Assembly (NCBI RefSeq): GCF_002261475.1
Contig: NZ_NEVN01000009.1
Location: 372,001-436,000, forward strand
Reading direction: 5' to 3'
DNA from: Bordetella genomosp. 5
Lineage (GTDB): Bacteria; Pseudomonadota; Gammaproteobacteria; Burkholderiales; Burkholderiaceae_B
Length of the DNA stretch: 64,000 nt
Every line of letters begins with the position of its first letter. Position 1 is the first letter of the stretch. Of the stretch, positions 46,594 to 63,082 are shown one piece after another. Position numbers and translations under genes: made by a program. The notes below the pieces were generated by a model. The model was not told where the DNA came from. It worked only from the letters and a program-made list of their open reading frames with translations, and did no database searches.

Positions 46594-47610
46594 TCAGTCG
46601 TTGCGGATGCCCAGGCGTTTGACGATGGGGCCCCACACCTCGGCTTCGGTCGTCATGGATTGCGCCACCGACTCGGGCCCCAGGGCCTTCGGCGGCGTCA
46701 TGTAGATCTCGTCCATCTGCTTGCGCACCGCCGGGTCGGCCCAGAACTTGCGCGTGGCCTCGGTGAGCCGCGTCACGATCTCGGGCGGCGTGCCCTTGGG
46801 CGCCATCAGGCCGTACCAGGCATCGCCGGGGAAGCCCTGCACGCCCACTTCGGCGATCGTGGGCACGTCGGGCAACTGCGCGACGCGGTCGGTGCCGAAG
46901 ATCACCAGCGGCACGGCCTTGCCGGTCTTGACCTGCGGCACCGCGCCGGTCAGCGCGTCGGAGGTCAGGTCGATCTGGCCGCCGATCAGATCCATCATCG
47001 CGGGCGCTGCGCCCTTGTACGGCACATGCGACATCTTGATGTTGAAATGTTCGGCCAGGAACGCGACGTTCAGATGGGTCGAGTTACCGATGCCGGCCGA
47101 GCCGTAGTTGAGATGGCCGGGATCGGCCTTGGCCTTCTTCACCAGATCCTCCACGGAGCGGATCCCGGTCTTGGGATTGGCCACCAGCACCTGCGAGGTG
47201 CCGGCGATCTTCGTTATCGGATCGAAATCGCGCGTGGGGTTGTAGGCCAGCTGCGAGTAGGTGAACGGATTGACCGACATGTTGGAGGTGCTGCCGAACA
47301 GCAGCGCATGACCGTCCGCCGGCTGTTTGGCCACGAAGGCGGCCGCGATGCTGCCGTTGGCGCCGGGCTTGTTCTCGACCACCACGGTGCCGCCGATTTC
47401 CTTGCTGGCGTAGGCGGCCCAGGCCCGGGCCAGCGCATCGGCCGCACCGCCCGCGGCCACCGGCACCACCACCGACACCGGACGCACCGGCCAGTTGGCG
47501 GCGGCAGCCGGAGCGGCAATGCTCAGCGCGAGCGTGCCGGCCGCGGCCAGCCCCAACAGACGTTGAACCAGGGGTGAAACCGACTGCGGAAAGGGCGAAC
47601 GATGGGCCAT
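46594..47610 (-). CDS. Bug/TctC-type tripartite tricarboxylate receptor
   Basis: This 338-residue protein has a long signal peptide ending APAAAA followed by NWPVRPVSVVVPVAAGGAADALAR, the typical Bug start. NGSIAAAFVAKQPADGHALLFG near residue 85 and GHLNYGSAGIGNSTHLN near 165 are family blocks. Bug proteins bind carboxylates or amides in the periplasm; no TctA/TctB membrane genes adjoin it, a common situation in Bordetella relatives. The ATG at 47610 gives the best signal peptide. It heads the minus-strand operon and is divergent from lysR. Confidence 0.9.
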   Translation of the reverse strand: MAHRSPFPQSVSPLVQRLLGLAAAGTLALSIAAPAAAANWPVRPVSVVVPVAAGGAADALARAWAAYASKEIGGTVVVENKPGANGSIAAAFVAKQPADGHALLFGSTSNMSVNPFTYSQLAYNPTRDFDPITKIAGTSQVLVANPKTGIRSVEDLVKKAKADPGHLNYGSAGIGNSTHLNVAFLAEHFNIKMSHVPYKGAAPAMMDLIGGQIDLTSDALTGAVPQVKTGKAVPLVIFGTDRVAQLPDVPTIAEVGVQGFPGDAWYGLMAPKGTPPEIVTRLTEATRKFWADPAVRKQMDEIYMTPPKALGPESVAQSMTTEAEVWGPIVKRLGIRND

Positions 47611-47668
47611 GGCCGGTTGCTCCAGAGAATTCGGACAGTGAAGGCCCGCATTCTGGAAGCCCGTTTTC

Positions 47669-47716
47669 ATTACGTCCAATGCATAATTCATCATCAAAGC
47701 ATAATCAGAACGTAAT
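47669..47716. promoter_or_regulatory. Inverted and direct repeats in the Bug/lysR divergent promoter
   Basis: ATTACGT at 47669-47675 is repeated inverted as ACGTAAT at 47710-47716. Between them GCATAAT occurs twice, at 47681-47687 and 47699-47705, 18 bp apart. An AT-rich stretch with symmetric ends in a 122-bp divergent gap is the expected place for a LysR regulator. Assignment is inferred. Confidence 0.5.
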
Positions 47717-47732
47717 AAAACAAGGGGCGCGG

Positions 47733-48656
47733 ATGAACCTGCAGCAGCTCGAACACTTCCTCGTCCTCGTGGAAACCCAGTCTTTCAGCCGCGCGGCGGC
47801 CAAGTTGCATCTCACGCAGCCCGCCCTGAGCCGCAGCATCCAGGCGCTCGAAGAGACGCTCGGCGGCCGCCTGCTCGAGCGCGACAAAGGGAAAACACTG
47901 ACGGCGCTGGGCGAGCTGGCCATCGTCCGCGCGCGCCGTATCCGGGTCGAACTCGCCGAGCTGCGCCGCAGCGCCAGCCTGCTGGCCGATTACGCGGGCG
48001 GCACGCTGCGACTGGGTCTGGGACCCACGCCCACCGCGATCCTGTCGCTGCCGCTGCTGCGCGAGATGAAGGAGCGCTACCCGGCGATCAAGCTGCTGCT
48101 GAGCGGGGGCACGCCCGAGATGCAGGTGCAGGAACTGCGCGAGGGTGCGGTCGACGCGCTGGTGGTGCACCGCAATCACATCCCCGCCGACGCCGACCTG
48201 CACCTGCGCTTCTTCCCGCGCACGCCGCTCGGTTTCGTGGTGCGCGCCGGCCATCCGCTCGCCGGCCGGCACGCGCTCGATTTCGATGCCCTGCGCCGCT
48301 ATGCCGTCGCGGCCAGCGGCCGCGCGATCAGCGACGAGGTGATGCACCGGCTCAACGCCTATTTCGGTCCGCCGGTGCACTTCATCGACGCCATCCAATA
48401 TCAGTCGAACGACATCCAGGCGCTGGTCGATCTGGTGCGCACGACCGATACCGTGTTCTTCGGTGTGCTGCAGGTGGCGCAACCGGCGATCGCGCGCGGC
48501 GAGCTGGTGCAGATGGAACTGCGGCCCGAGCTGGCGTTGTCATCGCAGTTCGTCTTCGTGACGCTGGAGGGCAAGACGCTGCCCCCCGCCCTGCTGCGGC
48601 TCGGCGAGCTTTGCATGCAGTACCTGTCGGGCCCCCTGGATCCCCATTCGGGCTGA
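47733..48656 (+). CDS. LysR-family transcriptional regulator
   Basis: This 307-residue regulator has an N-terminal helix-turn-helix, MNLQQLEHFLVLVETQSFSR followed by AAAKLHLTQPALSRSIQALEETLGGRLLERD, and a LysR substrate domain from about residue 90 (GTLRLGLGPTPTAILSLPLL). Length and plan are standard. It diverges from the Bug/ggt/peptide importer operon and is its likely regulator, with the repeats at 47669-47716 as candidate sites. Confidence 0.92.
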   Translation: MNLQQLEHFLVLVETQSFSRAAAKLHLTQPALSRSIQALEETLGGRLLERDKGKTLTALGELAIVRARRIRVELAELRRSASLLADYAGGTLRLGLGPTPTAILSLPLLREMKERYPAIKLLLSGGTPEMQVQELREGAVDALVVHRNHIPADADLHLRFFPRTPLGFVVRAGHPLAGRHALDFDALRRYAVAASGRAISDEVMHRLNAYFGPPVHFIDAIQYQSNDIQALVDLVRTTDTVFFGVLQVAQPAIARGELVQMELRPELALSSQFVFVTLEGKTLPPALLRLGELCMQYLSGPLDPHSG

Positions 48657-49609: not shown

Positions 49610-51838
49610 ATGGCGGAAAGGTCGTTCAAGAAAGAAGTCCAGCAGTTGCGCATTGGCGCGGGCGAAGAGTTCCGCGGCGAAGGCATTCTTGCCGTCACCA
49701 AGGGCCTGCTGCAGTCCGGCGTGGGGTACGTCGCCGGCTATCAAGGCTCGCCCATCTCGCATCTGATGGACGTGCTGGCGGATGCCAACGACATCCTGCA
49801 GGAGCTGGGCGTGCACTTCGAGGCCAGCGCCTCGGAGGCCACCGCCGCGGCCACGCTCGCCGCCTCCGTCATGTACCCCATTCGCGGCGCCGTCACCTGG
49901 AAATCCACGGTGGGCACCAACGTCGCCTCCGACGCCCTGGCCAACCTGGCCTCGGGCGGCGTGACGGGTGGCGCGCTGGTCATCGTGGGCGAAGACTACG
50001 GCGAAGGCTCCTCCATCATGCAGGAGCGCTCCCACGCGTTCGCAATGAAGTCGCAGATCTGGCTGCTGGATCCCCGCCCCAACCTCGAAAGCATGGTGCA
50101 GGCGGTCGAAGACGGCTTCTCGCTGTCCGAGGCGAGCAAGACGCCGGTCATGCTGCAACTGCGCATCCGCGGCTGTCACGTGCATGGCCGCTTCATCGCC
50201 AAGGACAACCAGCGCCCCGCCTTCTCGCTCGCGCAGGCGCTCGAAGCGCCGCAACGCGACACCAGCCGCATCGTGCTGCCGCCGGCCTCGTTCCTGCACG
50301 AACAGGAAAAGATCAAAGAGCGTTGGCCTGCCGCCATCTCGTTCATCAAAGAGCGCAGGCTCAACGAGTTCTTCGATGGCGAGCTGCAGGACGTGGGCCT
50401 GATCCTGCAGGGCGGGCTGTACAACGGCGTGATCCGCGCGCTGCAGCTGCAGGGCCTGGCCGATCACTTCGGCAACAGCCGCATTCCGCTTTATGTGATG
50501 AACGTCACGTATCCCGTGATCGAAGACGAAGTGCTGGACTTCTGCCGCGACAAGCGCGCGGTGCTGCTGCTCGAAGAAGGGCAGCCCGATTACATCGAAC
50601 AGAATCTTCACGCCGTGCTGCGGCGTGCCGGTGTCACGACTCAGCTTTCCGGCAAGGATGTCCTGCCGATGGCGGGCGAGTACACGACCCAGGTGATGCG
50701 CGACGGCATCCGCCGATTCATGGCGGCCCATGCGCCGGAGGCCGTGCAGACCCACGCGCCCGCCGCCGCGGACGCCCAGGGCGAGCGCCAGCTTCAGGCC
50801 ACCGAGGTGACGCGCGCGCGCCCCGCCCCGGCCGCACGCCCGGCCGAGCAGCCCGTCACGTTCATGCGCCATGCGGCCGACCTGGCCAGCGTCGTGCCGC
50901 CGCGGCCCGCCGGCTTCTGTACCGGCTGTCCCGAGCGGCCGATCTTCTCGGCCCTGACCCTGGCCCAGGAAAAGCTCGGCCAGCATCACATCTCCTGTGA
51001 CATCGGCTGCCATCTGTTCTCGATCCTGCCGCCCTTCAATCTGGGCGCCACCACGATGGGTTACGGCCTGGGCGCGTCGAGCGCCGCGGCGTTCAACGTG
51101 CCGGCGGCCAAGCGGCCGATCTCGATCATGGGCGACGGCGGCTTCTGGCACAACGGCCTCGCCTCGGGCATCGGCAACGCCGTGTTCAACAAATACGATG
51201 GCGTGATCGTCATCGTGGACAACTTCTATTCCTCGGCCACCGGCGGGCAGGACATCCTGTCATCGCGCGCCGAGAATCCCGACCGCTCCACCAACAATCC
51301 GATCGACGCGGCCGTGCGTGGCGTCGGCGTGAAATGGGTGCGCACGATCGACCACACCTACGACGTGTCGCGCGTGCGCGCCGTGCTCGAAGAGGCGCTC
51401 ACCACCGACGAGGGCGGGCCCAAGGTCATCATCGCGCAGTCGGAATGCATGCTGAACAAGCAGCGCCGGATCAAGCCGCTGTTCAATCGCGCGGTCAAAG
51501 AAGGCAAGCGCGTGGTCAAGGAGCGCTTCGGCGTCGACCCCGACGTCTGCACCGGCGATCACGCCTGTATCCGGCTGTCGGGCTGCCCTTCGCTCTCGGT
51601 GAAGGACAGCGGCGACCCGCTCAAGCCCGACCCGGTCGCACACGTCGAAAGCAGCTGCGTGGGCTGCGGCAACTGCGGCGAGGTCGCGCACGCCGCCGTG
51701 CTGTGCCCGTCGTTCTACCGCGCCGACATCGTGCACAACCCGAGCGCGGGCGACCGCCTGCTCGCTCGCGTGCGCAACGGCGTGATCGGCTTCCTGCAAC
51801 GCCGCCGCGCCGCTCGCCTCAACCGCTACGCCCTGTGA
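49610..51838 (+). CDS. Indolepyruvate/2-oxoacid:ferredoxin oxidoreductase, alpha-type subunit with ferredoxin domain
   Basis: This 742-residue protein resembles IorA. An N-terminal pyrimidine domain (ILAVTKGLLQSGVGYVAGYQGSP near residue 27, HFEASASEATAAATLAASVM) is followed by a TPP-binding domain (FCTGCPERPIFSAL near 441, ISCDIGCHLFSILPPFNLG, ISIMGDGGFWHNGLASGIGN near 505). A C-terminal 2[4Fe-4S] region has CTGDHACIRLSGC and CVGCGNCGEVAHAAVLC (about 646-698). It oxidatively decarboxylates aryl 2-oxo acids to acyl-CoA. AAGGGG precedes the ATG by seven bases. It leads the operon. Confidence 0.88.
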   Translation: MAERSFKKEVQQLRIGAGEEFRGEGILAVTKGLLQSGVGYVAGYQGSPISHLMDVLADANDILQELGVHFEASASEATAAATLAASVMYPIRGAVTWKSTVGTNVASDALANLASGGVTGGALVIVGEDYGEGSSIMQERSHAFAMKSQIWLLDPRPNLESMVQAVEDGFSLSEASKTPVMLQLRIRGCHVHGRFIAKDNQRPAFSLAQALEAPQRDTSRIVLPPASFLHEQEKIKERWPAAISFIKERRLNEFFDGELQDVGLILQGGLYNGVIRALQLQGLADHFGNSRIPLYVMNVTYPVIEDEVLDFCRDKRAVLLLEEGQPDYIEQNLHAVLRRAGVTTQLSGKDVLPMAGEYTTQVMRDGIRRFMAAHAPEAVQTHAPAAADAQGERQLQATEVTRARPAPAARPAEQPVTFMRHAADLASVVPPRPAGFCTGCPERPIFSALTLAQEKLGQHHISCDIGCHLFSILPPFNLGATTMGYGLGASSAAAFNVPAAKRPISIMGDGGFWHNGLASGIGNAVFNKYDGVIVIVDNFYSSATGGQDILSSRAENPDRSTNNPIDAAVRGVGVKWVRTIDHTYDVSRVRAVLEEALTTDEGGPKVIIAQSECMLNKQRRIKPLFNRAVKEGKRVVKERFGVDPDVCTGDHACIRLSGCPSLSVKDSGDPLKPDPVAHVESSCVGCGNCGEVAHAAVLCPSFYRADIVHNPSAGDRLLARVRNGVIGFLQRRRAARLNRYAL

Positions 51839-51845
51839 GCGCCCG

Positions 51846-53390
51846 ATGAGCCTGACCGATACCGCCCGCACCGAACCGATCAAGATCGCCATCCTGGCCA
51901 TGGGCGGCCAGGGTGGCGGCGTGCTCGCAGACTGGATCGTGGAGCTGGCCGAGCATGCCGGATGGTGGGCACAGACCACCTCGGTGCCGGGCGTGGCCCA
52001 GCGCACCGGCGCCACCATCTACTACCTCGAACTGCTGCCGGAGACCGAAGTCGCGCGCGCCGGACGACAACCCGCGCTGGCGCTCATGCCCACGCCGGGC
52101 GACGTCGATCTCGTGGTCGCCGCCGAGCTGATGGAAGGGGGCCGCGCCATTACCCGCGGGCTCGTCACCCCGGAGCGCACCACGCTCATCAGCTCATCGC
52201 ACCGCAGTTATGCGGTGAGCGAGAAATCCGCGCCGGGCAACGGCATCGCCGATCCGAACAAGGTGCTGGATGCCGGCCGCGACGCCGCCCGCCGCTTTCT
52301 CTGCTTCGATCTGCAGGAGCTGGCCGACCGCAACGGCAGCGTGATCAGCGCCAGCCTGTTCGGCGCCGTCGCCGGCAGCGGCGCCCTGCCGTTTGCGCGC
52401 GATGCCTACGAAGCCACCATCGAGCGCGCCGGTGTCGGGGTGCAGGCCAGCCTGCGCGCCTTCGGCGCCGGTTACGCCGCCGCGGTGCAGGCGCCGGCCC
52501 AGCCCGATGCCATCGTGGCACCCGATCATCTGCCCGAGGTGCCCGAACACGCCGCCTCCCCCGCCACGCAGACGCTGCTGGATCGGGTGCGGCGCGACTT
52601 TCCGGGCGCGGCCCAGCCGCTGATGGTGGCGGCGCTGCGCCGATTGATCGACTACCAGGACCCGGCTTATGCCGGCGAGTACCTCGATCGCATGGACACG
52701 CTGGCCGCCCTGGACCGTCAGCACGGCGGCGACGCGGCGGGCTGGGCGCTGACCTGTGCGGCCGCGCGCCACCTCGCGGTGGCGATGGCCTACGACGACG
52801 TGATCCGTGTCGCCGACCTCAAGACGCGCGGCACCCGCACCGAGCGCGTGCGCGCCGAGGTCGGCGCCAAGCCCGATCAGCTGGTCTACACCACCGAATT
52901 CGTGCATCCCCGGCTCGAGGAAATCTGCGGCACCCTGCCCGTGCGCCTGGGCCGCTGGCTCGAGCATTCGCGGGGCTTCGGCCGCTTCGTGGAAAAGCGG
53001 CTCGCGCGCGGCAAACGCATGCGGCTGGGCACGCTCCCGGGCTTTCTGGCGTTTTACGGACTGGCCGGCATGCGACGCTTCCGGCGCACCACCCTGCGCC
53101 ACCAGATCGAAAGCGAGGCCCTGCAGACCTGGCTCGCGCTGATCGCCCGCATCGCGCCCACCGACTACGCGCTGGCGGTCGAAACCACGCTATGCCGCCG
53201 TCTGGTCAAGGGCTACAGCGACACCCACGCCCGCGGCCAGAGCAAGTACCACACGCTGATCGACGCGGCGGGCCGCATGCTGGGCCAGCCCGACGCCGCG
53301 GCGCGGCTGCGCGAACTGCGCGAGCTGGCGCTGGCCCAGGCCAGCTGCGCGCCGCTCGAACGCCGCGCCGCCGAACACCTTCCCGCCTGA
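51846..53390 (+). CDS. 2-oxoacid:ferredoxin oxidoreductase beta-type subunit with C-terminal extension (DUF6537-like)
   Basis: This 514-residue protein begins with the gamma-domain fold of IorB (IAILAMGGQGGGVLADWIVE near residue 15, SVPGVAQRTGATIYYLEL near 46, LPTGDVDLVVAAELMEGGRA-like sequence near 80). Classical IorB is about 200 residues; the remaining 300, largely helical with HPRLEEICGTLPVRLGRWLE near 350, resemble the DUF6537 part of fused indolepyruvate oxidoreductases. It completes the enzyme with the preceding gene, seven bases upstream. Confidence 0.82.
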   Translation: MSLTDTARTEPIKIAILAMGGQGGGVLADWIVELAEHAGWWAQTTSVPGVAQRTGATIYYLELLPETEVARAGRQPALALMPTPGDVDLVVAAELMEGGRAITRGLVTPERTTLISSSHRSYAVSEKSAPGNGIADPNKVLDAGRDAARRFLCFDLQELADRNGSVISASLFGAVAGSGALPFARDAYEATIERAGVGVQASLRAFGAGYAAAVQAPAQPDAIVAPDHLPEVPEHAASPATQTLLDRVRRDFPGAAQPLMVAALRRLIDYQDPAYAGEYLDRMDTLAALDRQHGGDAAGWALTCAAARHLAVAMAYDDVIRVADLKTRGTRTERVRAEVGAKPDQLVYTTEFVHPRLEEICGTLPVRLGRWLEHSRGFGRFVEKRLARGKRMRLGTLPGFLAFYGLAGMRRFRRTTLRHQIESEALQTWLALIARIAPTDYALAVETTLCRRLVKGYSDTHARGQSKYHTLIDAAGRMLGQPDAAARLRELRELALAQASCAPLERRAAEHLPA

Positions 53391-53410
53391 CATTTGAATC
53401 GAGATCCATC

Positions 53411-54388
53411 GTGGCTCCGCTGAAACTCGTCGTACGTGACATCCGCCAAGAATCCCCGCTGATCCGCTCGGTCTGTCTGGAGCGGTCCGACGGCGGCGCG
53501 CTGCCCGCCTTCGGACCCGGCGCGCACCTGAAGATCACGATCCCCGGCCTGGCCGAGCCGCGCTGCTATTCGCTGATCGCCACCGAAGGTGGCGCCGCCG
53601 GTTTCGCACAACCGGCGCGCTACCGCCTCGGCGTGCGCCTCGAAGACAACAGCCAGGGCGGTTCGCGCCACATGCACGCGCTCGCCGTGGGCGATGAGCT
53701 CGAAGCCGAGGGCCCCAAGAACGACTTCCCGCTGCACGAGGCCCCGGCCGGCGAAGCGCCGGTGGTGCTGATCGCGGGCGGGATCGGCATCACGCCCATC
53801 GCCGCCATGGCCGCCGCGCTGGCCGGCGCCGGCCGCGACTACGCGCTGCACTACACCGGCCGCAGCCGCGAGCAGCTGGCGTTCGCCGGCGAGCTCGAGG
53901 GTCTGGCGGGCGGCGCGTTGCGCCTGTACGCCGACGACGAGCCCGCCGCCCGCTTCGACCTCGATGCCCTGCTGGCGGCGAGCACGCCGCATCAGCACCT
54001 GTATGTGTGCGGTCCCAAGGGCCTGATCGACGCGGTGATCGCCAAGGCGGCCGAGCGCGGCTGGCCGCCGGCGCACGTCCATTTCGAACTCTTCACCACG
54101 GCGACGGCCCAGGCCGGCGACCAGCCCTTCGAAGTCGAGCTGCGCCAGTCGGGCAAGGTTCTTACCGTGCCGGCCGACAAGACCATCGTGGATGTGCTCG
54201 AAGAGGCCGGCTGCGACCCGCTGTACGACTGCAAGCGCGGCGAGTGCGGCGTCTGTCAGGCCACCGTGCTGGAGGGCGAGCCGGACCACCGCGATTACTA
54301 CCTGTCAGCGGCCGAGAAGGCCAGCGGCACGGTCATTCAGATGTGCATCTCGCGCGCCAAGTCGGCCCGCCTGGTGCTGGACCTGTAG
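53411..54388 (+). CDS. PDR/VanB-family oxygenase reductase
   Basis: This 325-residue flavin reductase has a ferredoxin-reductase FMN domain (RCYSLIATEGG near residue 51, GGSRHMHALAVGDEL near 81), an NAD domain (VVLIAGGIGITPIAAMAAAL near 119, HLYVCGPKGLIDAVI near 200), and a C-terminal plant-type 2Fe-2S domain with CKRGECGVCQATVLEG near 275 and IQMCISRAKS. It passes electrons from NAD(P)H to an oxygenase. GTG at 53411 is the start and lies 20 bp after the previous gene. Confidence 0.9.
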   Translation: MAPLKLVVRDIRQESPLIRSVCLERSDGGALPAFGPGAHLKITIPGLAEPRCYSLIATEGGAAGFAQPARYRLGVRLEDNSQGGSRHMHALAVGDELEAEGPKNDFPLHEAPAGEAPVVLIAGGIGITPIAAMAAALAGAGRDYALHYTGRSREQLAFAGELEGLAGGALRLYADDEPAARFDLDALLAASTPHQHLYVCGPKGLIDAVIAKAAERGWPPAHVHFELFTTATAQAGDQPFEVELRQSGKVLTVPADKTIVDVLEEAGCDPLYDCKRGECGVCQATVLEGEPDHRDYYLSAAEKASGTVIQMCISRAKSARLVLDL

Positions 54389-54396
54389 AGGCAGAC

Positions 54397-55728
54397 ATGG
54401 CGAGCCCACGCTACCGCGACAATCCCGACGCCGTCCGCGCCCTGGTGCGCGAGACCGAAGTGCACAAGGATCTGTTCACCAGCCCCGAGCTGTTCGATCT
54501 CGAAATGGAACACCTGTACGCCGCGACCTGGGTGTACGTGGGCCACGAGAGCCAGGTGCCGAACAACGGCGACTACATCACGACCACCGTGGGCGCGCAG
54601 CCCGTGGTGATGGTGCGCCACACCGACAAATCGGTACGCGTGCTGTACAACCGCTGCCCGCACAAAGGCACCATGGTGGCGGGCGATGCCTGCGGCAATA
54701 CCGGCAAATTCTTCCGTTGCCCCTACCACGCCTGGACCTTCAAGACCGACGGATCGCTCCTGTCGATCCCGCTCAAGAAGGGCTACGACCCCGAGGTGCT
54801 GTCGTCCTGCGAGGCCAGCAGCGGCATGGCGGCCGTGGGCGCCGTGGAAAATTATCGCGGCTTCATCTTCTGCCGCCTCAACGCGCAGGGCCAGGATTTC
54901 GCGGCGTTCTTCGGCGAGTCGCTCAGCACCCTCGACAACATGGTCGACCGCTCGCCCGAGGGCCGGCTCGAGGTGGCGGGCGGGGTGTTCCGCTACGTGC
55001 ACCGCTGCAACTGGAAGATGCTGGTCGACAACCAGACCGACACCTGCCACCCGATGGTGGCGCACGAGTCCTCGGCGGGTACCGCCGTGAGGGTCTGGGA
55101 GGCCGCGCCCGAGGGGACGCCCAAGCCCATGGCCGTGGAGCTCTTCGCGCCGTTCATCTCGCCCTACGAATTCTTCGAGAACATGGGCATCCGCGTCTGG
55201 GAAAACGGCCACGGTCATACCGGCGTGTCGGATTCCATTCACGCGTCGTACTCCACGATCCCGGGCTACTGGGACGCGATGGTGAACGCCTACGGCGAGG
55301 ACCGGGCCCATGCCATCCTGGGCGAGGTCCGCCACAACACCGTGTACTTCCCCAACATCATGGTCAAGGGCCCGATCCAGACGCTGCGCATCTTCAAGCC
55401 GCTGGCCGCCGACCGCACGCTGGTCGAGTCGTGGACCTTCCGGCTGGTCGGCGCGCCCGACCTGCTGCTCGAACGCACCCTCATGTACAACCGCTTGATC
55501 AACGCGCCCACCTCGGTGGTGGGCCACGACGACCTGGAGATGTACGAGCGCGCCCAGCAAGGCCTGGCGGCCCGCTCGCACGACTGGGTCAACGTGGCGC
55601 GGCTGTGGCAGGCCGACGAGCAGAGCCAGCGCAACGTCGTCACCAACGGCACCAACGAATGGCAGATGCGCAACCAGTACCGGGCCTGGGCCCGCTACCT
55701 CACCGACAGCATGGAGGCCCGCGCATGA
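54397..55728 (+). CDS. Aromatic ring-hydroxylating dioxygenase, Rieske alpha subunit
   Basis: This 443-residue Rieske oxygenase has cluster ligands C87-P-H89 and C108-P-Y-H111 (RCPHKGTMVAG and RCPYHAWTFK). The mononuclear iron site is in DNQTDTCHPMVAH, giving D215 as electron bridge and H218/H223 as ligands. The beta-sheet catalytic domain follows to the end. It would dihydroxylate an aromatic or heteroaromatic ring using O2. It starts eight bases after the reductase gene, and its stop overlaps the beta-subunit start. Confidence 0.93.
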   Translation: MASPRYRDNPDAVRALVRETEVHKDLFTSPELFDLEMEHLYAATWVYVGHESQVPNNGDYITTTVGAQPVVMVRHTDKSVRVLYNRCPHKGTMVAGDACGNTGKFFRCPYHAWTFKTDGSLLSIPLKKGYDPEVLSSCEASSGMAAVGAVENYRGFIFCRLNAQGQDFAAFFGESLSTLDNMVDRSPEGRLEVAGGVFRYVHRCNWKMLVDNQTDTCHPMVAHESSAGTAVRVWEAAPEGTPKPMAVELFAPFISPYEFFENMGIRVWENGHGHTGVSDSIHASYSTIPGYWDAMVNAYGEDRAHAILGEVRHNTVYFPNIMVKGPIQTLRIFKPLAADRTLVESWTFRLVGAPDLLLERTLMYNRLINAPTSVVGHDDLEMYERAQQGLAARSHDWVNVARLWQADEQSQRNVVTNGTNEWQMRNQYRAWARYLTDSMEARA

Positions 55729-56219
55729 ACGCGCCGCTCGACCAACGCCTCGCCGATTTCGTCTACGCCGAAGCCCGCCTGCTCGACGAGCAGCGGTTCG
55801 ACGCGTGGCTGGCGCTTTTCACCGCCGATGGCCATTACTGGATGCCGCTCGCCCACGACCAGCAGGACGCGCGCCTGCATGCGTCGCTGATGTACGAAGA
55901 CCAGCTGCTGCTACGCGTGCGGATCGAACGCCTGACGGGCAACCGCACGTTTTCGCAACAGCCGCGCAGCCGCTCGCATCACCTGCTGCAGGCGCCCACC
56001 GTGGAACACGACCACCCCGAACATCAGCCCGACGAAGGCCGCTACGTGGTGCGCAGCGCCTTCCATTACGTGGAGTCGCGCCAGGACGAGCAGACCCTCT
56101 ACGCGGGCTGGGCCACGCATCACCTGGTCGACCAGGACGGCGCGCTGCGCATGCGCCTCAAGCGCGTCGATCTGCTGAACTGCGACGCGGCCTTCGGCAA
56201 CATTCAACTGTTCATGTGA
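55725..56219 (+). CDS. Aromatic ring-hydroxylating dioxygenase, beta subunit
   Basis: This 164-residue protein has the SnoaL/NTF2-like fold of Rieske oxygenase small subunits: FVYAEARLLDEQRFDAWLALFTADGHYWMP near residue 12, RIERLTGNRTFSQQPRSRSHH near 70 and a C-terminal RVDLLNCDAAFGNIQLFM ending. It has structural rather than catalytic roles. It overlaps the alpha gene by four bases, showing an alpha3beta3-type enzyme. Confidence 0.92.
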   Translation: MNAPLDQRLADFVYAEARLLDEQRFDAWLALFTADGHYWMPLAHDQQDARLHASLMYEDQLLLRVRIERLTGNRTFSQQPRSRSHHLLQAPTVEHDHPEHQPDEGRYVVRSAFHYVESRQDEQTLYAGWATHHLVDQDGALRMRLKRVDLLNCDAAFGNIQLFM

Positions 56220-56229
56220 GGAGCGCGAC

Positions 56230-57864
56230 ATGAACGCAACGGTTCACCAGGCTTTCACCGACAGCGCGCGCCAATGGCCGGAGCACGCTTTCCTGTGCAT
56301 CCTGCCGGAGACGGCGGGCCTGTACGGCATCGCGGCAGGCGAGCTCGCCTATGCCGACGCCGCGGTCCGCGTCGAGGCGCTGCGCAGCGCCTATGCGGCG
56401 GCGGGCTACGGCCATGGCCACCGCGCCGGCCTGCTGCTCGAGAATCGGCCCGACTTCTTTCTGCACTGGTTCGCGCTGAACGCGCTCGGCGTGTCGGTCG
56501 TGCCGATCAACGCCGATCTGCGCGCCGCCGAACTCGAGTACCTGACGGGACACTCCGAGATCGCGCTGGCGGTCGCGCTGCCGCAACGGCACGACGACCT
56601 GCGCGCCGCCGCCGGCCGGGCGGGCCGGCCGCTCGCCGTGATGGGCCCGGCCGACGCGGTGCCGGTCGCGCCGTTCGCGGCCCCGCGCGCGAACGAAGCG
56701 CCGGACGAGCTGAGCGAATGCGCCCTGCTCTACACCTCGGGCACGACGGGCCGGCCCAAGGGTTGCATCCTGCCCAATCGCTATTTCCTGCACGCGGGCC
56801 GGTGGTACGCGCGCGCCGGCGGCCTGGCCGCGTTGCGCCCGGGCGTGGAACGCATGATCACGCCGCTGCCCCTGGTGCACATGAACGCCATGGCGTATTC
56901 GGCCATGGCGATGGTGCTGACCGGCGGCTGCCTCATCCCGCTCGACCGCTTCCACCCGCGCAGCTGGTGGGACAGCGTGCGCGCCTCGCGCGCCACGGTG
57001 CTGCACTACCTGGGCGTGATGCCCGCCATGCTGATGAAGGCGCCCGACAGCGCGCAGGACCTCAAGCATCGTGTGCGCTTCGGCTTCGGCGCCGGCGTCG
57101 AGCGCGGCCTGCACGAGCCCTTCGAGGCCCGCTTCGGCTTCCCGCTGCTGGAGGCCTGGGCCATGACCGAAACCGGCGCCGGCGCCGTCGTCATCGCCAA
57201 CGAAGAGCCGCGCCACATCGGATCGAACTGCTTCGGTCGCGAAGAGGCCGACGTTCAGGTCCGCATCGTGGCCGACGATGGCACCGACGCGGCCGCGGGC
57301 CAGCCCGGCGAACTGCTCGTGCGCCATGCGGGCGACGACCCCCGCTACGGTTTCTTCGCCGGCTATCTGAAAGACGCCGAGGCCACCGATGCCGCGTGGG
57401 AAGGCGGCTGGTTTCATACCGGCGACATCGTGCGCCGCGATGCCGACGGGGCGCTGCGCTTCGTCGATCGCAAGAAAAACGTGATCCGCCGCAGCGGCGA
57501 GAACATCTCTGCCGTCGAGGTCGAGGCGGTGCTGCTGCGTCACCCCAACGTCAAGACCGCGGCCGTGGCGGCCGTGCCCGATCCCGTGCGCGGCGACGAG
57601 GTCCTGGCCTGCGTGGTCGCCGACAGCGAACCCGCCGACCCGGACGGCCGCGCCGCCGCGGCGCAGGAACTCGTGCAGTGGTGTCTGGAGCAACTGGCCT
57701 ATTACAAGGCGCCCGGCTATGTGGCGTTCGTGGATGCGCTGCCGCTCACCACCACCAACAAGATCCAGCGGGGCGAGATGAAAAACTGGGCGCCGACCTT
57801 GCCCGGCACCGAACGCTGCGTCGACACCCGCGCGCTCAAGAAGCGCCAGGAGCACGCCGCATGA
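56230..57864 (+). CDS. Class I adenylate-forming acyl/aryl-CoA ligase
   Basis: This 544-residue AMP-dependent ligase has the P-loop LLYTSGTTGRPKGCILP near residue 165, LLEAWAMTETGAG near 305 (A5 motif), HTGDIVRRDADGALRFVDRKKNVIRRSGENIS-type A7/A8 region (first part WFHTGDIVRRDADG) near 400, and A10 Lys in LPLTTTNKIQRGEMK near 512. It activates an organic acid to its CoA ester with ATP. GAGGAG lies six bases before the ATG. The substrate is probably the aromatic acid handled by the operon. Confidence 0.9.
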   Translation: MNATVHQAFTDSARQWPEHAFLCILPETAGLYGIAAGELAYADAAVRVEALRSAYAAAGYGHGHRAGLLLENRPDFFLHWFALNALGVSVVPINADLRAAELEYLTGHSEIALAVALPQRHDDLRAAAGRAGRPLAVMGPADAVPVAPFAAPRANEAPDELSECALLYTSGTTGRPKGCILPNRYFLHAGRWYARAGGLAALRPGVERMITPLPLVHMNAMAYSAMAMVLTGGCLIPLDRFHPRSWWDSVRASRATVLHYLGVMPAMLMKAPDSAQDLKHRVRFGFGAGVERGLHEPFEARFGFPLLEAWAMTETGAGAVVIANEEPRHIGSNCFGREEADVQVRIVADDGTDAAAGQPGELLVRHAGDDPRYGFFAGYLKDAEATDAAWEGGWFHTGDIVRRDADGALRFVDRKKNVIRRSGENISAVEVEAVLLRHPNVKTAAVAAVPDPVRGDEVLACVVADSEPADPDGRAAAAQELVQWCLEQLAYYKAPGYVAFVDALPLTTTNKIQRGEMKNWAPTLPGTERCVDTRALKKRQEHAA

Positions 57865-59027
57865 GCCGCAAGGGTTACGACGGCGTCGCGGTGGCCGTGC
57901 CGGTCACGGTGCCCTACGTCCGCTACAGCACGCATGCCGCGCACTGGTGGCTCGGACGCGCGCTGGCCGAATTGCTGCGCGCCACCGGCCTGCGCAAGCA
58001 CGACGTCGACGGCGTATGCGTATCGAGCTTCACGCTCGCGCCGGACAGCGCGGTCGGCCTGATGCAGCATCTGGGCATGCAGCCCCGCTGGCTCGACCAT
58101 ATCCCGATGGGCGGCGCCTCGGGCGTGGTGGCGCTGCGCCGCGCGGCGCGTGCCGTGCAGGCCGGCGACGCCTCGATCGTCGCCTGCGTCGCGGGCGATA
58201 CCAACCATGTCGACTCGTTCCGCAACACGGTGAGCCAGTTCTCCCGCTTTGCCCAGGACGGCGTCTATCCCTACGGGGCGGGCGGCCCCAACGCCAGCTT
58301 CGCGCTGCTCACCGACCACTACATGCGCGAGAGCGGCGCCACCCGTGCCGACTTCGGCAAGCTCTGCGTGGCCCAGCGCGACAACGCGCTGCGCTATCCG
58401 CACGCGCTGATGAAGAAGCCGCTCACGCTCGAGCAATACCTGGGCGCGCGCGAGATCGCGAGCCCGATCCACCTCTTCGACTGCGTCATGCCGTGCGCGG
58501 GCGCCGACGCCTTCCTGGTGATGAGCGACGAACGCGCCCGGGCGCTCGGCCTGCCCTACGCGCATCTGCTGGGCACGATCGAGCGCCATAACGCCTGGAG
58601 CGAGGATCCGATCCAGACGCGCGGCGGCTGGACGCTCGACGTGGACGACCTCTACGCACAGGCCGGCCGGGGCCCCGCGGATGTCGATGTGATGCAGGCC
58701 TACGACGACTACCCGGTGATCAACTTCATGCAGCTCGAAGACCTGGGCTTCTGCGCCAAGAACGAAGCGCCCGAGTTCGTGCGCCGTCACACCTTCACGG
58801 TGGACGGCAGCTTTCCGTTCAACACCAACGGCGGACAGCTCTCGGTCGGCCAGGCCGGCGCCGCCGGCGGCTATCTCGGCACGGTGGAAGCGCTGCGCCA
58901 GCTCACCGGCGGCGCGGGCCGCACGCAGGTGGCCGACGCGCGCACCGCGCTGGTGAGCGGCTTCGGCATGATCAACTACGACCGCGGCCTGTGCACCGGC
59001 GCGGCGCTGCTCGGGAGCGCATCATGA
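57861..59027 (+). CDS. Thiolase-like protein (SCP2/Ltp2 type) lacking the nucleophilic Cys
   Basis: This 388-residue thiolase-fold protein aligns with the SCP-x/lipid-transfer thiolase group. At the nucleophile position it reads HIPMGGASGVVALRRA (about 80-95), with Gly-Gly-Ala-Ser-Gly and no Cys. The C-terminal block is NTNGGQLSVGQAGAAGG near 340 instead of the His-containing GHPxGxTG. Such Cys-less forms working with DUF35 partners include retro-aldolases of steroid degradation. The next gene carries a DUF35 domain and overlaps it by four bases, so they likely form one complex. Confidence 0.85.
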   Translation: MSRKGYDGVAVAVPVTVPYVRYSTHAAHWWLGRALAELLRATGLRKHDVDGVCVSSFTLAPDSAVGLMQHLGMQPRWLDHIPMGGASGVVALRRAARAVQAGDASIVACVAGDTNHVDSFRNTVSQFSRFAQDGVYPYGAGGPNASFALLTDHYMRESGATRADFGKLCVAQRDNALRYPHALMKKPLTLEQYLGAREIASPIHLFDCVMPCAGADAFLVMSDERARALGLPYAHLLGTIERHNAWSEDPIQTRGGWTLDVDDLYAQAGRGPADVDVMQAYDDYPVINFMQLEDLGFCAKNEAPEFVRRHTFTVDGSFPFNTNGGQLSVGQAGAAGGYLGTVEALRQLTGGAGRTQVADARTALVSGFGMINYDRGLCTGAALLGSAS

Positions 59028-60265
59028 CCGCCCCGCTCAAGCCCCCCGGGCGCAAGAATCCGGTCGCGCGTACGCGCCAGCCCACGCTGCCGCCCGGCGC
59101 GCGCAGCCGTGCCGCGCTGGGGCTGACCGCCGCGGCGGCGCTCGGCCACTTCCGCCTGCAGGTCTGCGCCGCCTGCGGCACGGTTCAGTATCCGCCGCGC
59201 GAAGTGTGCGGCGCCTGCCTGCATCATGAGCTGCCCTGGCGCGACGTGTCGCCATGCGGCACCCTCATCGCCCGCACCACCCTGCAGCACAGCAACGACC
59301 TTTATTTCCGCGAGCGCCTGCCCTGGCACGTCGGCACCGTCGTGATGGACGCCGGCCCCAGCGTGGTGGCCCATCTGCACGAGGACTGCCGCGACGGCGA
59401 GCCGGTGCGCCTGGTACTCAAACTGGATCGCAGCGGCCAGGCCGTGATGATCGCCCTGCCGCCCAAGGACACACCCCATATGGAAGACGACAAGACGCTG
59501 CGCGAGACCTCCTGCACGCCGAAGCTGCGACGCGTACTGGTCACCGACGGGCGCTCCGCGGTGGGCCAGGCCCTGGTCGGCGCATTGCTGCAGGCCGGCG
59601 CCACCCGGGTCTTCGTGGGCGACCCGCAGGCCTGGCGCGGCGACGCCGCCTTCGAGGCGCTGCGCACGGACGAGCGCGTGAGCGTCCTGCCGCTGGACAT
59701 CACCGACACCGACGCCGTGGATCGCGCCGCCGCGTCGATCGGCGGCAAGGTCGACATTCTCGTCAACACGGCCGACTACGAACGCGAGGGCGGGCTGCTC
59801 GGCGCGCGCGATGTGAACCGCGCGCGGGATGCGCTGGACGTCAATTGCCTCGGCCTCATGCGCCTGGCGCAGGCGTTCGGCCCCGGGATGTGCGGCCGCG
59901 CCGCCGACGGACTGAACAACGCCTGCGCCTGGGTCAACGTGCTGAGCATCTATGCGCAGATGAATCTGCCCGCGCGCGGCGTGTGGTCGGCGAGCAAGGC
60001 CGCCGCGCTGTCGCTGGCGCAGTGCCTGCGCGCCGAGTTCCGGCCCGCGGGCGTGCGCGTGATCAACGTCTTCCCGGGCCCGGTCGACCACGAATGGGAG
60101 CAGCGCACGCCGCCCCCGCGCGTGGCGCCCAAGGCGATCGCCGCCGCGATCGTGCGCGCGCTCGAGGCGGGCACCGAAGACGTGTACGTGGGCGACGTGG
60201 CCGAGGAATTCCTCGCCCGTCTGGCCGACAACCCCAAGGGACTGGAACGCGAGCTGGGCGCCTGA
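59024..60265 (+). CDS. DUF35/OB-fold zinc-ribbon domain fused to a degenerate short-chain dehydrogenase
   Basis: This 413-residue two-domain protein has a rubredoxin-like zinc ribbon (C48, C51, C62, C65) and OB fold in residues 40-150, the arrangement of thiolase-partner DUF35 proteins. Residues 168-410 form an SDR-like Rossmann domain: VLVTDGRSAVGQALVGALL, then DILVNTADY near 244 and NVLSIYAQM with Ser308. The active-site Tyr position is Trp321 (GVWSASKAA) with Lys325 retained. The ATG at 59024 overlaps the thiolase stop. Fusion and lost Tyr suggest a structural or altered catalytic role. Confidence 0.87.
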   Translation: MTAPLKPPGRKNPVARTRQPTLPPGARSRAALGLTAAAALGHFRLQVCAACGTVQYPPREVCGACLHHELPWRDVSPCGTLIARTTLQHSNDLYFRERLPWHVGTVVMDAGPSVVAHLHEDCRDGEPVRLVLKLDRSGQAVMIALPPKDTPHMEDDKTLRETSCTPKLRRVLVTDGRSAVGQALVGALLQAGATRVFVGDPQAWRGDAAFEALRTDERVSVLPLDITDTDAVDRAAASIGGKVDILVNTADYEREGGLLGARDVNRARDALDVNCLGLMRLAQAFGPGMCGRAADGLNNACAWVNVLSIYAQMNLPARGVWSASKAAALSLAQCLRAEFRPAGVRVINVFPGPVDHEWEQRTPPPRVAPKAIAAAIVRALEAGTEDVYVGDVAEEFLARLADNPKGLERELGA

Positions 60266-60292: not shown

Positions 60293-61075
60293 TTGAGCGC
60301 AGACACCCTCGCCCGTTTCGTCGGCGACCTGGCCGCAGGCCGGATCCGCGTGGTCGACCTGACCGAAACCCTCACGCCCGAGTTTCCGACCATCGTGCTG
60401 CCGCCCGAGTTCGGCCAGGCGTGGCCGTTCCGCATCGAAGAGATCTCGCGCTATGACGAGCGCGGCCCGGCCTGGTACTGGAACAACTTCTCGTGTTCCG
60501 AGCACACCGGCACGCACTTCGACGCGCCGGCCCACTGGATCAGCGGCAAGGACCAGCCCGACAATACCGTCGACACCATCCCCGTCGAGGCCTTCGTCGC
60601 GAACGCCTGCGTGATCGACTGCTCGCGCGAATCGCGCGACAACCCCGATTTCCTGCTCACCATCGACTTCGTCAAGCGTTGGGAAGCCGAGCATGGCGAG
60701 ATTCCTGCCCGCTCGTGGGTGCTGATGCGCACCGACTGGTCCAAGCGCGCCAAGCCCGCCGAGTATCTGAACATGCAGGCCGATGGCGCTCACTCGCCGG
60801 GCCCCGACGCGGATGTCGTGCCGTGGCTCATCAAGGAGCGCGACGTGCATGGGTTCGGCACCGAGTCGGTCGGCACCGACGCGGGCCAGGCGGCGCACCT
60901 GGATCCGCCCTATCCCTGCCACTACTTCATGCACGGCAACAACCGCTATGGCCTGCAGTGCCTGACCAATCTCGATCAGCTGCCGCCCAAGGGCGCGGTG
61001 ATCTTCTCGGCGCCGCTGAAGATCCGCAACGGCTCGGGCAGCCCGCTGCGCGTGCTGGCCATGGCGCCGGTCTGA
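60293..61075 (+). CDS. Cyclase-family hydrolase (KynB/isatin hydrolase type)
   Basis: This 260-residue protein of the putative-cyclase family has HTGTHFDAPAHWISG near residue 67, the H-x-G-T-H-x-D-x-P-x-H metal motif of N-formylkynurenine formamidase and isatin hydrolase, and a downstream conserved GTDAGQAAHLDPPYP segment near 197. These manganese/zinc enzymes open cyclic or linear amides or lactones. The start is TTG 60293, with AAGGAG six bases before it. The gene is 27 bp after the fusion gene. Confidence 0.9.
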   Translation: MSADTLARFVGDLAAGRIRVVDLTETLTPEFPTIVLPPEFGQAWPFRIEEISRYDERGPAWYWNNFSCSEHTGTHFDAPAHWISGKDQPDNTVDTIPVEAFVANACVIDCSRESRDNPDFLLTIDFVKRWEAEHGEIPARSWVLMRTDWSKRAKPAEYLNMQADGAHSPGPDADVVPWLIKERDVHGFGTESVGTDAGQAAHLDPPYPCHYFMHGNNRYGLQCLTNLDQLPPKGAVIFSAPLKIRNGSGSPLRVLAMAPV

Positions 61076-61101: not shown

Positions 61102-61830
61102 ATGAACAATGAAAATGTGGCCATCGTCACCGGCGGCAGCGCCGGCATCGGCGCCGAAATCTGCCGCAGCATGCTCGAGGCCGGCTACGAGGTGATTTCG
61201 CTGGCGCGCCGCACGGGCGAACAGCGCCATGCGCGCCTGCATCATGTGCAGGTGGACCTGCTCGACGCCACCGCCACGGCGCAGGCCGCCGCCGAGGTGG
61301 CCGCCCGGCATCCCGTGAGCCACGTGATCCACAACGCCGGCGTGATCTGGCCGAATCTGTTGCCCGACGTGAAGCCCGAAGAGCTGCAGGGACTGACGCA
61401 GATCCATCTGGGCGCGGCGCTGGCGCTGGTGCAGGCCACGCTGCCGGGCATGCAGGAGCGCGGCTACGGCCGCATCGTGCTGCTGTCGTCGCGCGGTGCG
61501 CTGGGCCTGCCCACGCGCACGGCCTATTCCGCCACCAAGGCCGGCATGATCGGCATGGCGCGCACGTGGGCGCTGGAGCTCGCGCCCAGCGGCATCACCG
61601 TCAACGTGGTGGCGCCCGGCCCGATCCAGACCGATATGTTCTACGAGGTCATCGAACCCGGCAGCGAACGCGAGCGCGCGCTCGCCAACAACATCCCGGT
61701 CAAGCGCATCGGCCGCAGCGACGACGTCGCGCGCGCGGTCATGTTTTTCTCCGATCCCGCCAATAGCTTCGTGACCGGTCAGACGCTGTATGTCTGCGGC
61801 GGCGCGAGCGTGGGCTCGATCACGATCTGA
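61102..61830 (+). CDS. Short-chain dehydrogenase/reductase
   Basis: This 242-residue SDR has the nucleotide motif VTGGSAGIGAEICRSML (TGxxxGIG at residues 10-17), HNAGVIWP near 78, catalytic Ser in VLLSSRGALG near 133, and YSATK near 147 with Tyr and Lys intact. It oxidises or reduces an alcohol/ketone using NAD(P). In the operon it could dehydrogenate the cis-diol or a hydroxyacyl-CoA. AAGGGGAA precedes the ATG. Confidence 0.92.
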   Translation: MNNENVAIVTGGSAGIGAEICRSMLEAGYEVISLARRTGEQRHARLHHVQVDLLDATATAQAAAEVAARHPVSHVIHNAGVIWPNLLPDVKPEELQGLTQIHLGAALALVQATLPGMQERGYGRIVLLSSRGALGLPTRTAYSATKAGMIGMARTWALELAPSGITVNVVAPGPIQTDMFYEVIEPGSERERALANNIPVKRIGRSDDVARAVMFFSDPANSFVTGQTLYVCGGASVGSITI

Positions 61831-61933: not shown

Positions 61934-63082
61934 ATGTTGTCGAACAAGCTCTCCCTGGCGGCCGCGGCCGCCGCCGCCCTGATCGCCTTCCCCGCCCTGG
62001 CCCAGGTCAAGGTCGGCGTGGTCACGTCGTCCACCGGCCCCACCGCCCTGGTCGGCATCCCGCAAAAAAATACGGTCCCGCTGCTGCCCAAGAAGATCGG
62101 CGACCTGACGGTCGAGTACATCTCGCTCGATGACGCCAGCGACTCCACGCAGTCGGTCACCGCGTTCAAGAAGCTGATCTCGGAGCAGAACGTCGACGCG
62201 CTGATCGGCCCGTCGGGCTCGCCCAACGCGATGGGCGTGATCCAGTTCGCCGCCGAGGCCGGCGTGCCCATGCTGGCGCCGGTGGGTACCGCCGCGGTGG
62301 TGCTGCCGATGAACGACCAGAAGAAGTGGGTGTTCAAGACCACGCAGAACGACGACATCATCGCCCGTGCGCTGGTCGACCACATGGCCAAGACCGGCAT
62401 CAAGACGGTGGGCTTCATCGGCCTGAACGATCCCTACGGCGAGAACTGGTACAAGGTGTTCTCGGCCATGGCGACCGAGAAAGGCATCAAGATCAGCGCC
62501 AACGAACGCTACCTGCGCTTCGACAGCTCGGTGACCGGCCAGGCGCTCAAGATCCTCGCCGCCAAGCCGGACGCGGTGCTGATCGCCGCTCCGGGCGCGG
62601 CCAGCGTGCTGCCGCAGACCACGCTGTTCGATCAGGGCTACAAGGGCAAGTTCTACCAGACCCACGGCGCCGCGCTACCCGACTTCCTGAAGCTCGGCGG
62701 CAAGAAGGTCGAAGGCACGATCCTCGCGGCCAGCCTGATGCTGGTGCTGCCGGAAATGCCCGACAGCAACCCGTCCAAGAAGGTCGCCTCCGACTACATC
62801 GCCGCCTACCAGAAGCTGCACGGCTCGGTGCCCGCCACCTTCGGCGCCAACGTCTACGACGCCGGCCTGCTGCTCGAGAAGGCCGTTCCGATTGCCGAGA
62901 AGGCCGGCAAGCCGGGCACCAAGGAGTTCCGCTCCGCGCTGCGCGATGCGCTGGAACAGACCAAGGAGCTGGTGGGCACGCAGGGCGTCTACAACATGAG
63001 CGCCGCCGACCACAGCGGTTTCGACGAACGCGGACGCGAGCTGATCACCGTGCGTGACGGCAACTGGACGCTGGTCAAGTAA
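61934..63082 (+). CDS. Liv-type ABC transporter periplasmic binding protein
   Basis: This 382-residue type I periplasmic binding protein has a Sec signal (NKLSLAAAAAAALIAFPALAQ, cleavage after ALA). The mature start KVGVVTSSTGPTALVGIPQKN is a LivK-type signature, and VDALIGPSGSPNAMGVIQFAAE near residue 85 and FIGLNDPYGENWYKVF near 160 are typical. Members in aromatic operons bind aromatic acids. GGAGG precedes the ATG by six bases. It lies 103 bp after the SDR and starts the uptake module. Confidence 0.93.
   Translation: MLSNKLSLAAAAAAALIAFPALAQVKVGVVTSSTGPTALVGIPQKNTVPLLPKKIGDLTVEYISLDDASDSTQSVTAFKKLISEQNVDALIGPSGSPNAMGVIQFAAEAGVPMLAPVGTAAVVLPMNDQKKWVFKTTQNDDIIARALVDHMAKTGIKTVGFIGLNDPYGENWYKVFSAMATEKGIKISANERYLRFDSSVTGQALKILAAKPDAVLIAAPGAASVLPQTTLFDQGYKGKFYQTHGAALPDFLKLGGKKVEGTILAASLMLVLPEMPDSNPSKKVASDYIAAYQKLHGSVPATFGANVYDAGLLLEKAVPIAEKAGKPGTKEFRSALRDALEQTKELVGTQGVYNMSAADHSGFDERGRELITVRDGNWTLVK

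Follow-up and report, generated by a model that had tools for sequence, protein, structure and literature searches.

Degradation of the auxin indole-3-acetic acid (IAA) through the iad locus shapes root growth, and this locus is being engineered into root bacteria (PMC12633357). In the same preprint (2025), anthranilate was lowered on deletion of iadCDE, iadF, iadG, iadH, iadI or iadJ, and C10H9NO4 (dioxindole-3-acetic acid, DOAA) accumulated on deletion of iadF, iadG, iadH or iadI; iadG, iadH and iadI were each shown to be needed, a "reductive" alcohol dehydrogenase role was inferred for IadH, and IadG and IadH were assigned as ketothiolase and alcohol dehydrogenase, respectively, by annotation (PMC12633357). 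The Variovorax locus is reported to be under the control of MarR proteins (PMC9613470), the IMG gene ids given for Variovorax paradoxus CL14 yield a matching iadC-iadK order (PMC10374108), and both Achromobacter Root83 and Variovorax Root473 are stated to grow on IAA (PMC11630574). Here, we describe the iadH gene of Bordetella genomosp. 5, located in a stretch of 64,000 nucleotides (assembly GCF_002261475.1, contig NZ_NEVN01000009.1, positions 372,001 to 436,000 of the forward strand; hereafter, the window), whose product fuses a DUF35 zinc ribbon and OB fold to a domain of the short-chain dehydrogenase/reductase (SDR) type. Judged from its motifs, the dehydrogenase half looks catalytically dead, and we consider it likely that IadH is an accessory subunit of the C-C-cleaving IadG rather than a dehydrogenase, with its SDR half serving as a structural module.

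The window displays the complete gene order iadA-B-C-D-E-F-G-H-I-J-K expected of an iad locus (Table 1), with the same C-D-E-F-G-H-I-J-K order as in V. paradoxus CL14/CL014 (PMC10374108), and this match identifies the fusion as iadH. An earlier reading of the window made from its letters alone (the sequence-only reading) missed its identity as iadH of an auxin operon. The gene (59024-60265) is a single uninterrupted reading frame of 413 codons plus a stop, present in one copy in the 5.2 Mb genome; the end of iadG overlaps its start by 4 bases, and iadI (a Pfam Cyclase gene) begins 27 bases after it. All three Pfam matches of IadH (zf-ChsH2, OB_ChsH2_C and adh_short) exceed the gathering score, so that both ChsH2/DUF35 models, the zinc ribbon with its four metal Cys and the OB fold, are recognized, and none of the 25 NCBIfam models shown for the fusion reached its own cut-off. 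The earlier description of one frame encoding a four-Cys zinc ribbon/OB part and a Rossmann SDR domain was therefore borne out by Pfam and by the residue read-out, and the residues that it named (Ser308 and Lys325 kept, Trp321 in place of the YxxxK Tyr, and TGxxxGxG altered to TDGRSAVG) are all present in the window.

A sequencing error joining two frames, which would have undone that description, is ruled out by the distribution of the gene. Indeed, in a scan of 268 genomes of the family, 107 gave a match to the fusion at 1e-20, and by table count these comprised 82 genomes with the full-length fusion, 18 with a stand-alone DUF35 and 7 with an SDR relative alone; with 82/268 genomes carrying the DUF35-SDR architecture, the fusion is neither a frame error nor a chance event. 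The best 80 of 126 confirmed loci from the genome-contig scan included Bordetella, Achromobacter, pusillimonads, Azoarcus, Aromatoleum and Variovorax. Among the matches listed, the nearest named relative was that of Bordetella genomosp. 1 (91 percent identity over the whole protein), and the Variovorax fusions were 57-58 percent identical to the window IadH. In the plasmid collection, 34 of the 40 matching records, among them Sulfitobacter, Roseibium and Labrenzia, had a query coverage of 80 percent or more, and among 398 genomes across the phylum, IadG was found at 1e-90 in 8 (the own genome included), the other 7 all with an adjoining fusion. Our widest set comprised 123 distinct full-length fusions from 178 loci in Beta- and Alphaproteobacteria, and a smaller alignment comprised 147 full-length rows, duplicates between collections included. 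A supposed split two-gene form (DUF35 and a separate pseudo-SDR, with matches running through a stop) turned out to be a DUF35 gene followed by the ordinary iadJ.

None of the 123 distinct fusions has the full motif set of an active classical SDR, although the fold is recognized by profile (adh_short) in the window IadH. Residue 175, the first Gly of TGxxxGxG, is Asp in 119 and Asn in 4, residue 179 is Gly in a single one, and the catalytic positions drift: residue 308 is Ser in 118, Pro in 4 and Thr in 1; residue 321 is Trp in 83, Phe in 28, Tyr in 7, Thr in 2, His in 2 and Ala in 1; and residue 325 is Lys in 80, Gln in 29, Met in 7, His in 2, Ala in 2, and Asn, Gly and Cys in 1 each. The combination of Gly175, Ser/Thr308, Tyr321 and Lys325 was found in 0/123. 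As the spacing Ser308-x12-321-xxx-325 is that of a normal SDR, Trp321 truly sits at the YxxxK Tyr position, and the best match among sequences of the Protein Data Bank (PDB), 5u4s, aligns with Leu there. The smaller alignment gave a similar picture, with the four Cys in 147/147 rows, residue 321 as Trp (122), Phe (23) or Tyr (2), and residue 325 as Lys (96), Gln (40), Met (9) or His (2). By comparison, the non-fused SDR relatives obtained in the same order-wide search, which served as a control, had Gly175 in 21/21 and Tyr in 17 (Leu in 4). The most degraded site seen (Pro/Thr/Ala) belongs to the fusion of the Ruegeria pomeroyi DSS-3 megaplasmid (locus L206), and we noticed that this marine model strain carries a complete iadC-J-like operon on that replicon. 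We also noted that whole genera (loci L044, L142, L144-L147, L040 and L050) have Met or Gln for the catalytic Lys, with Trp retained at the Tyr position. Of the two strains grown on IAA, Root83 (locus L124, coordinates as G025) has Trp321 and Root473 (locus L169) has Phe321.

While all three catalytic positions drift, A326, G352, P353, W358 and Q360 are invariant (123/123). In addition, the ratio of nonsynonymous to synonymous substitutions (dN/dS, Nei-Gojobori method, medians over pairs) was 0.078 for the SDR part (821 pairs) and 0.059 for its 40 nearest pairs, as low as for the DUF35 part (0.101 and 0.078, respectively). The SDR domain of IadH is thus under strong purifying selection (median dN/dS 0.06-0.08) and, since its motifs are lost, other positions are invariant and dN/dS is low, it is a constrained pseudoenzyme. 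Regarding the proposal of a nucleotide-binding pseudoenzyme, the pseudoenzyme-like SDR stood, whereas nucleotide binding found no support: with Asp or Asn at the first Gly of the NAD(P) motif in 123/123, NAD(P) binding in the usual mode is doubtful.

The proteins encoded on both sides of iadH point to the reaction that it may serve. IadG lacks the nucleophilic Cys of thiolases (Gly85 stands there in 130/130 distinct sequences), and its Y281, D283, Q326 and Q331 are invariant in the same set. Its top three PDB chains are 9myr (aligned YDCY, GGQ and GQ), 4u4e and 6ok1 (aligned YDHF), the latter being Ltp2 crystallised with the DUF35 of ChsH2. The catalytic pair of CtSal is described as Tyr302 and Cys304 of the YDCY motif (PMC12329534), and 9myr would, from this motif, be CtSal. 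IadG thus shows two marks of the Sal/Ltp2 aldolases, the catalytic Tyr of YDxx and a DUF35 partner gene; the known acid (Cys304 in Sal, Tyr344 in Ltp2) is missing, since Asp283 occupies the place of Cys304 and Gln, as in Sal, that of Ltp2 Tyr344. Of 17 NCBIfam models listed for IadG, not one reached its cut-off (best 210.8 bits vs 421). From this layout, IadG is probably a retro-aldolase rather than a thiolase. The tethering of the pseudoenzyme to a thiolase-like complex, as suggested by the sequence-only reading, agrees with the 4-base overlap of iadG and iadH and with the DUF35 of the nearest solved relatives, which binds thiolase-like partners, but the partner is probably a retro-aldolase. 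Steroid, ibuprofen or plain benzoate-type pathways, initially considered from the IadG and Rieske matches, were dropped once the operon had been matched to iad.

Downstream, IadI belongs to the isatin hydrolase family (5nna, 6.3e-117), with the HxGTHxD metal motif in 121/121 distinct sequences and GLQC in 120/121. The IadI of Roseibium aggregatum (locus L204, 10254-11027), which adjoins a fused iadH, differs by alignment count at 9/257 residues from the solved LaIHA (5nnb), a near-identity of sequence that ties LaIHA to the iad operon. LaIHA hydrolyses isatin with a reported Michaelis constant of 16 uM (PMC6117287). IadI being an isatin hydrolase, the gene following iadH needs isatin and not dioxindole.

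Taken together, the Sal/Ltp2 layout of IadG and the identity of IadI make the likely reaction the conversion of DOAA-coenzyme A (CoA) to isatin and acetyl-CoA, followed by isatinate. In such a scheme, IadF would make the CoA ester, converting DOAA to dioxindole-3-acetyl-CoA, a beta-hydroxyacyl-CoA, and the N-terminal DUF35 of IadH would sit on the IadG dimer, like ChsH2 on Ltp2 and Shy on Sal. The IadG-IadH pair would then split dioxindole-3-acetyl-CoA by retro-aldol cleavage, without redox chemistry: Tyr281 of IadG would deprotonate the hydroxyl on C3, the bond between C3 and the CH2 group would break, and Asp283 (at the position of the CtSal catalytic acid Cys304) or a neighbour would protonate the acetyl-CoA enolate. 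IadI would finally open isatin to isatinate, en route to anthranilate. The C-terminal SDR domain, with its redox chemistry lost, would be kept folded, most simply as a scaffold or dimerisation arm. If IadG-IadH is such a retro-aldolase, the pathway can do without a reductive step, releases the side chain as acetyl-CoA and yields isatin directly, and the presence of an isatin hydrolase as the next gene would be explained. The working names ketothiolase (IadG) and alcohol dehydrogenase (IadH), given to two needed genes, are contradicted by the sequences. Our study confirms the fusion itself and adds a testable reading of two genes (iadG and iadH) in a known operon. Among the literature matches listed, none joined DUF35 with iadH or iadG; apart from a single general review, no paper in the library searched brought together at least three of dioxindole-3-acetic acid, aldolase, isatin and CoA ligase.

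Several observations weigh against this scheme. (i) C8H7NO2, the formula of dioxindole, accumulates when iadI is deleted, as well as in the iadCDEFGH_JK2 strain, and was read as the product of a reductive removal of the side chain (PMC12633357); our scheme needs other enzymes to reduce isatin for this result to arise. (ii) DOAA-CoA was not detected in that preprint (PMC12633357). (iii) Asp283 is proposed as the catalytic acid from its position, and both the IadG-IadH contact and the retro-aldol activity are predicted from sequence. (iv) Four of the 123 fusions (L065, L067, L181 and L182) retain Ser-Tyr-Lys and lack the Gly motif only; as they have Asp175, their inactivity hangs on the Gly motif by itself.

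A more elaborate role for the dead domain was suggested by the stand-alone DUF35 loci, which were read with wide flanks in 10 of the 18 genomes found. All 10 carry iadI, iadC to iadG, DUF35 and iadJ in an operon without the pseudo-SDR, which means that the chemistry by itself can do without this domain; in two of these loci, an unrelated SDR that stands alone and has normal motifs lies close to the edge of the stretch. iadI directly follows iadH in 123/123 distinct fused loci (gap of -30 to 300 bases) and the DUF35 gene in 0/10 stand-alone loci, whereas iadJ directly follows DUF35 in 10/10 stand-alone loci and iadH in 0/105 fused loci where iadJ was found. An absence of iadI from stand-alone loci, as seen with 4 kb flanks, proved wrong, since iadI is present in 22/22 genomes examined, among them each of the 18 with a stand-alone DUF35, and is located either ~7 kb upstream of the DUF35 gene or 6.9 kb downstream of it. 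The remaining difference between the two locus types is therefore one of adjacency and IadI type, not of presence. On the IadG tree, the stand-alone state needs two changes (46 rows; likewise with 63 rows), and a single origin was rejected (p-value of the approximately unbiased test, p-AU, 0.00012; 0 percent of 200 bootstrap trees). In the short DUF35 tree (150 columns, with long branches), however, the stand-alone forms fall together with a support of 98, so that a transfer of DUF35 together with IadI from one lineage to another is just as possible as two losses. The IadI proteins of stand-alone loci form one clade (support 100; 100/100 in 35 rows), and placing the IadI of genus g38 with those of Achromobacter and Bordetella was rejected (p-AU 0.0005). 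The presence of the pseudo-SDR thus tracks IadI type and place on two backgrounds, which fits a docking of IadI and hints that the pseudo-SDR holds it; a deletion from iadH through iadI, or a transfer of the stand-alone set, would give the same pattern, the independent events being one or two. We therefore put forward only tentatively, as something that we would not expect but take seriously, that IadH is a two-headed adaptor, its DUF35 holding IadG and its dead SDR holding IadI, with the reactive isatin handed from site to site. In that case, the invariant G-H-I gene order would reflect the arrangement within the complex, and the lineages that lost the SDR head would rely on another isatin hydrolase, one able to work without it.

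Other explanations fare less well. The pocket of the pseudo-SDR may have been repurposed as a lid on IadG that holds isatin, or else the CoA or indole moiety of the substrate, without docking an enzyme; the loop that follows the PG motif ranks with the best-conserved stretches (G352, P353, W358 and Q360), as expected of a ligand site, but the domain is absent from operons that look working, and we judge such a lid rather unlikely. An active alcohol dehydrogenase or isatin reductase, with a reductive side-chain removal giving dioxindole, would agree with the annotation, with the C8H7NO2 of the iadI deletion (PMC12633357) and with Variovorax IadH, in which Ser and Lys are retained and Phe stands in place of the Tyr. 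However, judged from Variovorax other than CL14, both the cofactor motif and the catalytic motif are missing from this protein, whose published role as an alcohol dehydrogenase comes from annotation, and the loss of Gly175 to Asp/Asn in 123/123, a Tyr321 in only 7 and a Lys325 in 80 of the 123 fusions, the complete operons without an SDR domain and an isatin hydrolase as the next enzyme make an active enzyme improbable. Moreover, the pseudo-SDR could be the inactive half of a mixed SDR with IadJ. Such a pair is reportedly formed by BbsC, an inactive SDR subunit, with BbsD, and IadJ matches both BbsD and BbsC at 1e-31 to 4e-31. However, iadJ is retained in 10/10 loci without the pseudo-SDR, and of 13 genomes with a fused locus but no adjoining iadJ (three of them less than 90 percent complete), 8 gave no IadJ relative at E 1e-50, in 2 the sole relative is 47-48 percent identical (the level of a paralogue in the own genome) and in 3 there is one of 52-63 percent elsewhere. 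A BbsC-like pairing with IadJ is thus not supported by gene presence, and we regard it as slightly less probable still than an active enzyme. Finally, a decaying, functionless relic of an accidental fusion, to which the drift of the catalytic residues and the absence of the domain in at least two IadG-tree lineages might point, is not supported by a dN/dS of about 0.06-0.08, nor by 123 distinct full-length copies over two classes, and is hardly credible.

Table 1. Positions in the window of iadH, its domains and the other genes of the iad operon.
Feature	Position	Strand	Remarks
iadH (DUF35-pseudoSDR fusion)	59024..60265	+	413 aa; named by gene order against the IMG ids given in PMC10374108
zf-ChsH2 zinc ribbon of IadH	59129..59221	+	residues 36-66, Cys48/51/62/65; Pfam 9.7e-10
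OB_ChsH2_C domain of IadH	59237..59419	+	residues 72-132; Pfam 1.9e-8
IadH linker	59420..59524	+	residues 133-167; conserved too (median dN/dS 0.034, 767 pairs)
Pseudo-SDR domain of IadH	59525..60262	+	residues 168-413; adh_short match 170-360, 1e-24
IadH codons	D175 59546-59548; S308 59945-59947; W321 59984-59986; K325 59996-59998	+	computed from residue numbers
iadA, thiamine-diphosphate oxidoreductase-like	49610..51838	+	TPP_enzyme_C
iadB, indolepyruvate-ferredoxin-oxidoreductase-like	51846..53390	+	POR, DUF6537
iadC, ferredoxin-reductase-like protein	53402..54388	+	start approximate
iadD, Rieske oxygenase alpha subunit	54397..55728	+	start set at the Met before PDAVRA
iadE, Rieske oxygenase beta subunit	55725..56219	+	homologue so annotated beside L204
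iadF, AMP-forming acyl-CoA ligase	56230..57864	+	
iadG, thiolase-fold protein, probable retro-aldolase	57861..59027	+	Y281-D-D-Y, Q326, Q331, no nucleophile Cys
iadI, isatin hydrolase, Pfam Cyclase	60293..61075	+	PDB 5nna isatin hydrolase A, E 6.3e-117
iadJ, ordinary SDR	61102..61830	+	YSATK motif
iadK-like periplasmic binding protein	61934..63082	+	

The order of reductase, Rieske alpha, Rieske beta, CoA ligase, thiolase-like protein, fusion, cyclase, SDR and binding protein recurs in the loci that are wide enough, with exceptions (L048, L065, L226, L228, L231 and others have no iadJ or no oxygenase genes in the fetched stretch); in plasmids of Roseibium, Sulfitobacter, Ruegeria pomeroyi DSS-3 and Paracoccus, the gene order matches up to the SDR. 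Isatinate being an aryl 2-oxo acid, the substrate type of iadA/iadB-like oxidoreductases, the products of these two genes may act after the isatin hydrolase. A gene for a LysR-type regulator lies upstream of iadA on the same strand (window positions 47574-48656). Several Variovorax loci (L155, L157, L161 and others) carry a second Rieske alpha/beta pair at the far end, downstream of the binding-protein genes; its alpha and beta genes share 48-54 percent and 41-60 percent identity, respectively, with those of the window.

Among known systems, BbsC and BbsAB resemble the iad case in that a DUF35-thiolase pair and a pseudo-SDR occur in one CoA-ester pathway, but BbsA and BbsC are separate proteins, unlike the fused IadH, and descent from BbsC is not indicated, since the 60 best PDB matches of the fusion do not include it. 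The best PDB match of the SDR part is 5u4s, a putative short chain dehydrogenase (1.4e-33), which also has Leu for Tyr; unlike IadH, it stands alone and keeps its Gly residues, with GADRGLG after the motif Thr. The stand-alone SDRs closest to the pseudo-SDR (L184, L185, L186 and L188) likewise have Leu for Tyr and a kept Gly motif, and by their sequences they form, with the 5u4s type, a separate family of Tyr-less SDRs. The ibuprofen pathway offers a similar set of an oxygenase, a CoA ligase, a thiolase-like protein and an OB-fold protein, in which IpfD/IpfE remove an acyl-CoA side chain beside a hydroxylated carbon; compared by description only, IpfE is not presented as an SDR fusion in the accounts given of it (PMC11347016, PMC9195938). 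ChsH2 and Shy, like IadH, join DUF35 to a second domain and pair with a thiolase-fold aldolase (PMC11321319, PMC12329534), and as DUF35-MaoC fusions they render incomplete the earlier statement that DUF35 usually stands alone as a thiolase partner (PMC11321319). In these two proteins, DUF35 is joined to a MaoC hydratase that works in Shy but is inert in ChsH2, whereas the second domain of IadH looks like a dead SDR; the substrate of IadH is not a steroid, and its zinc ribbon is Cys4 compared with Cys3His1 in Shy. If our reading holds, IadH would represent a third kind of DUF35 fusion, in which a dead enzyme has been retained as a building block.

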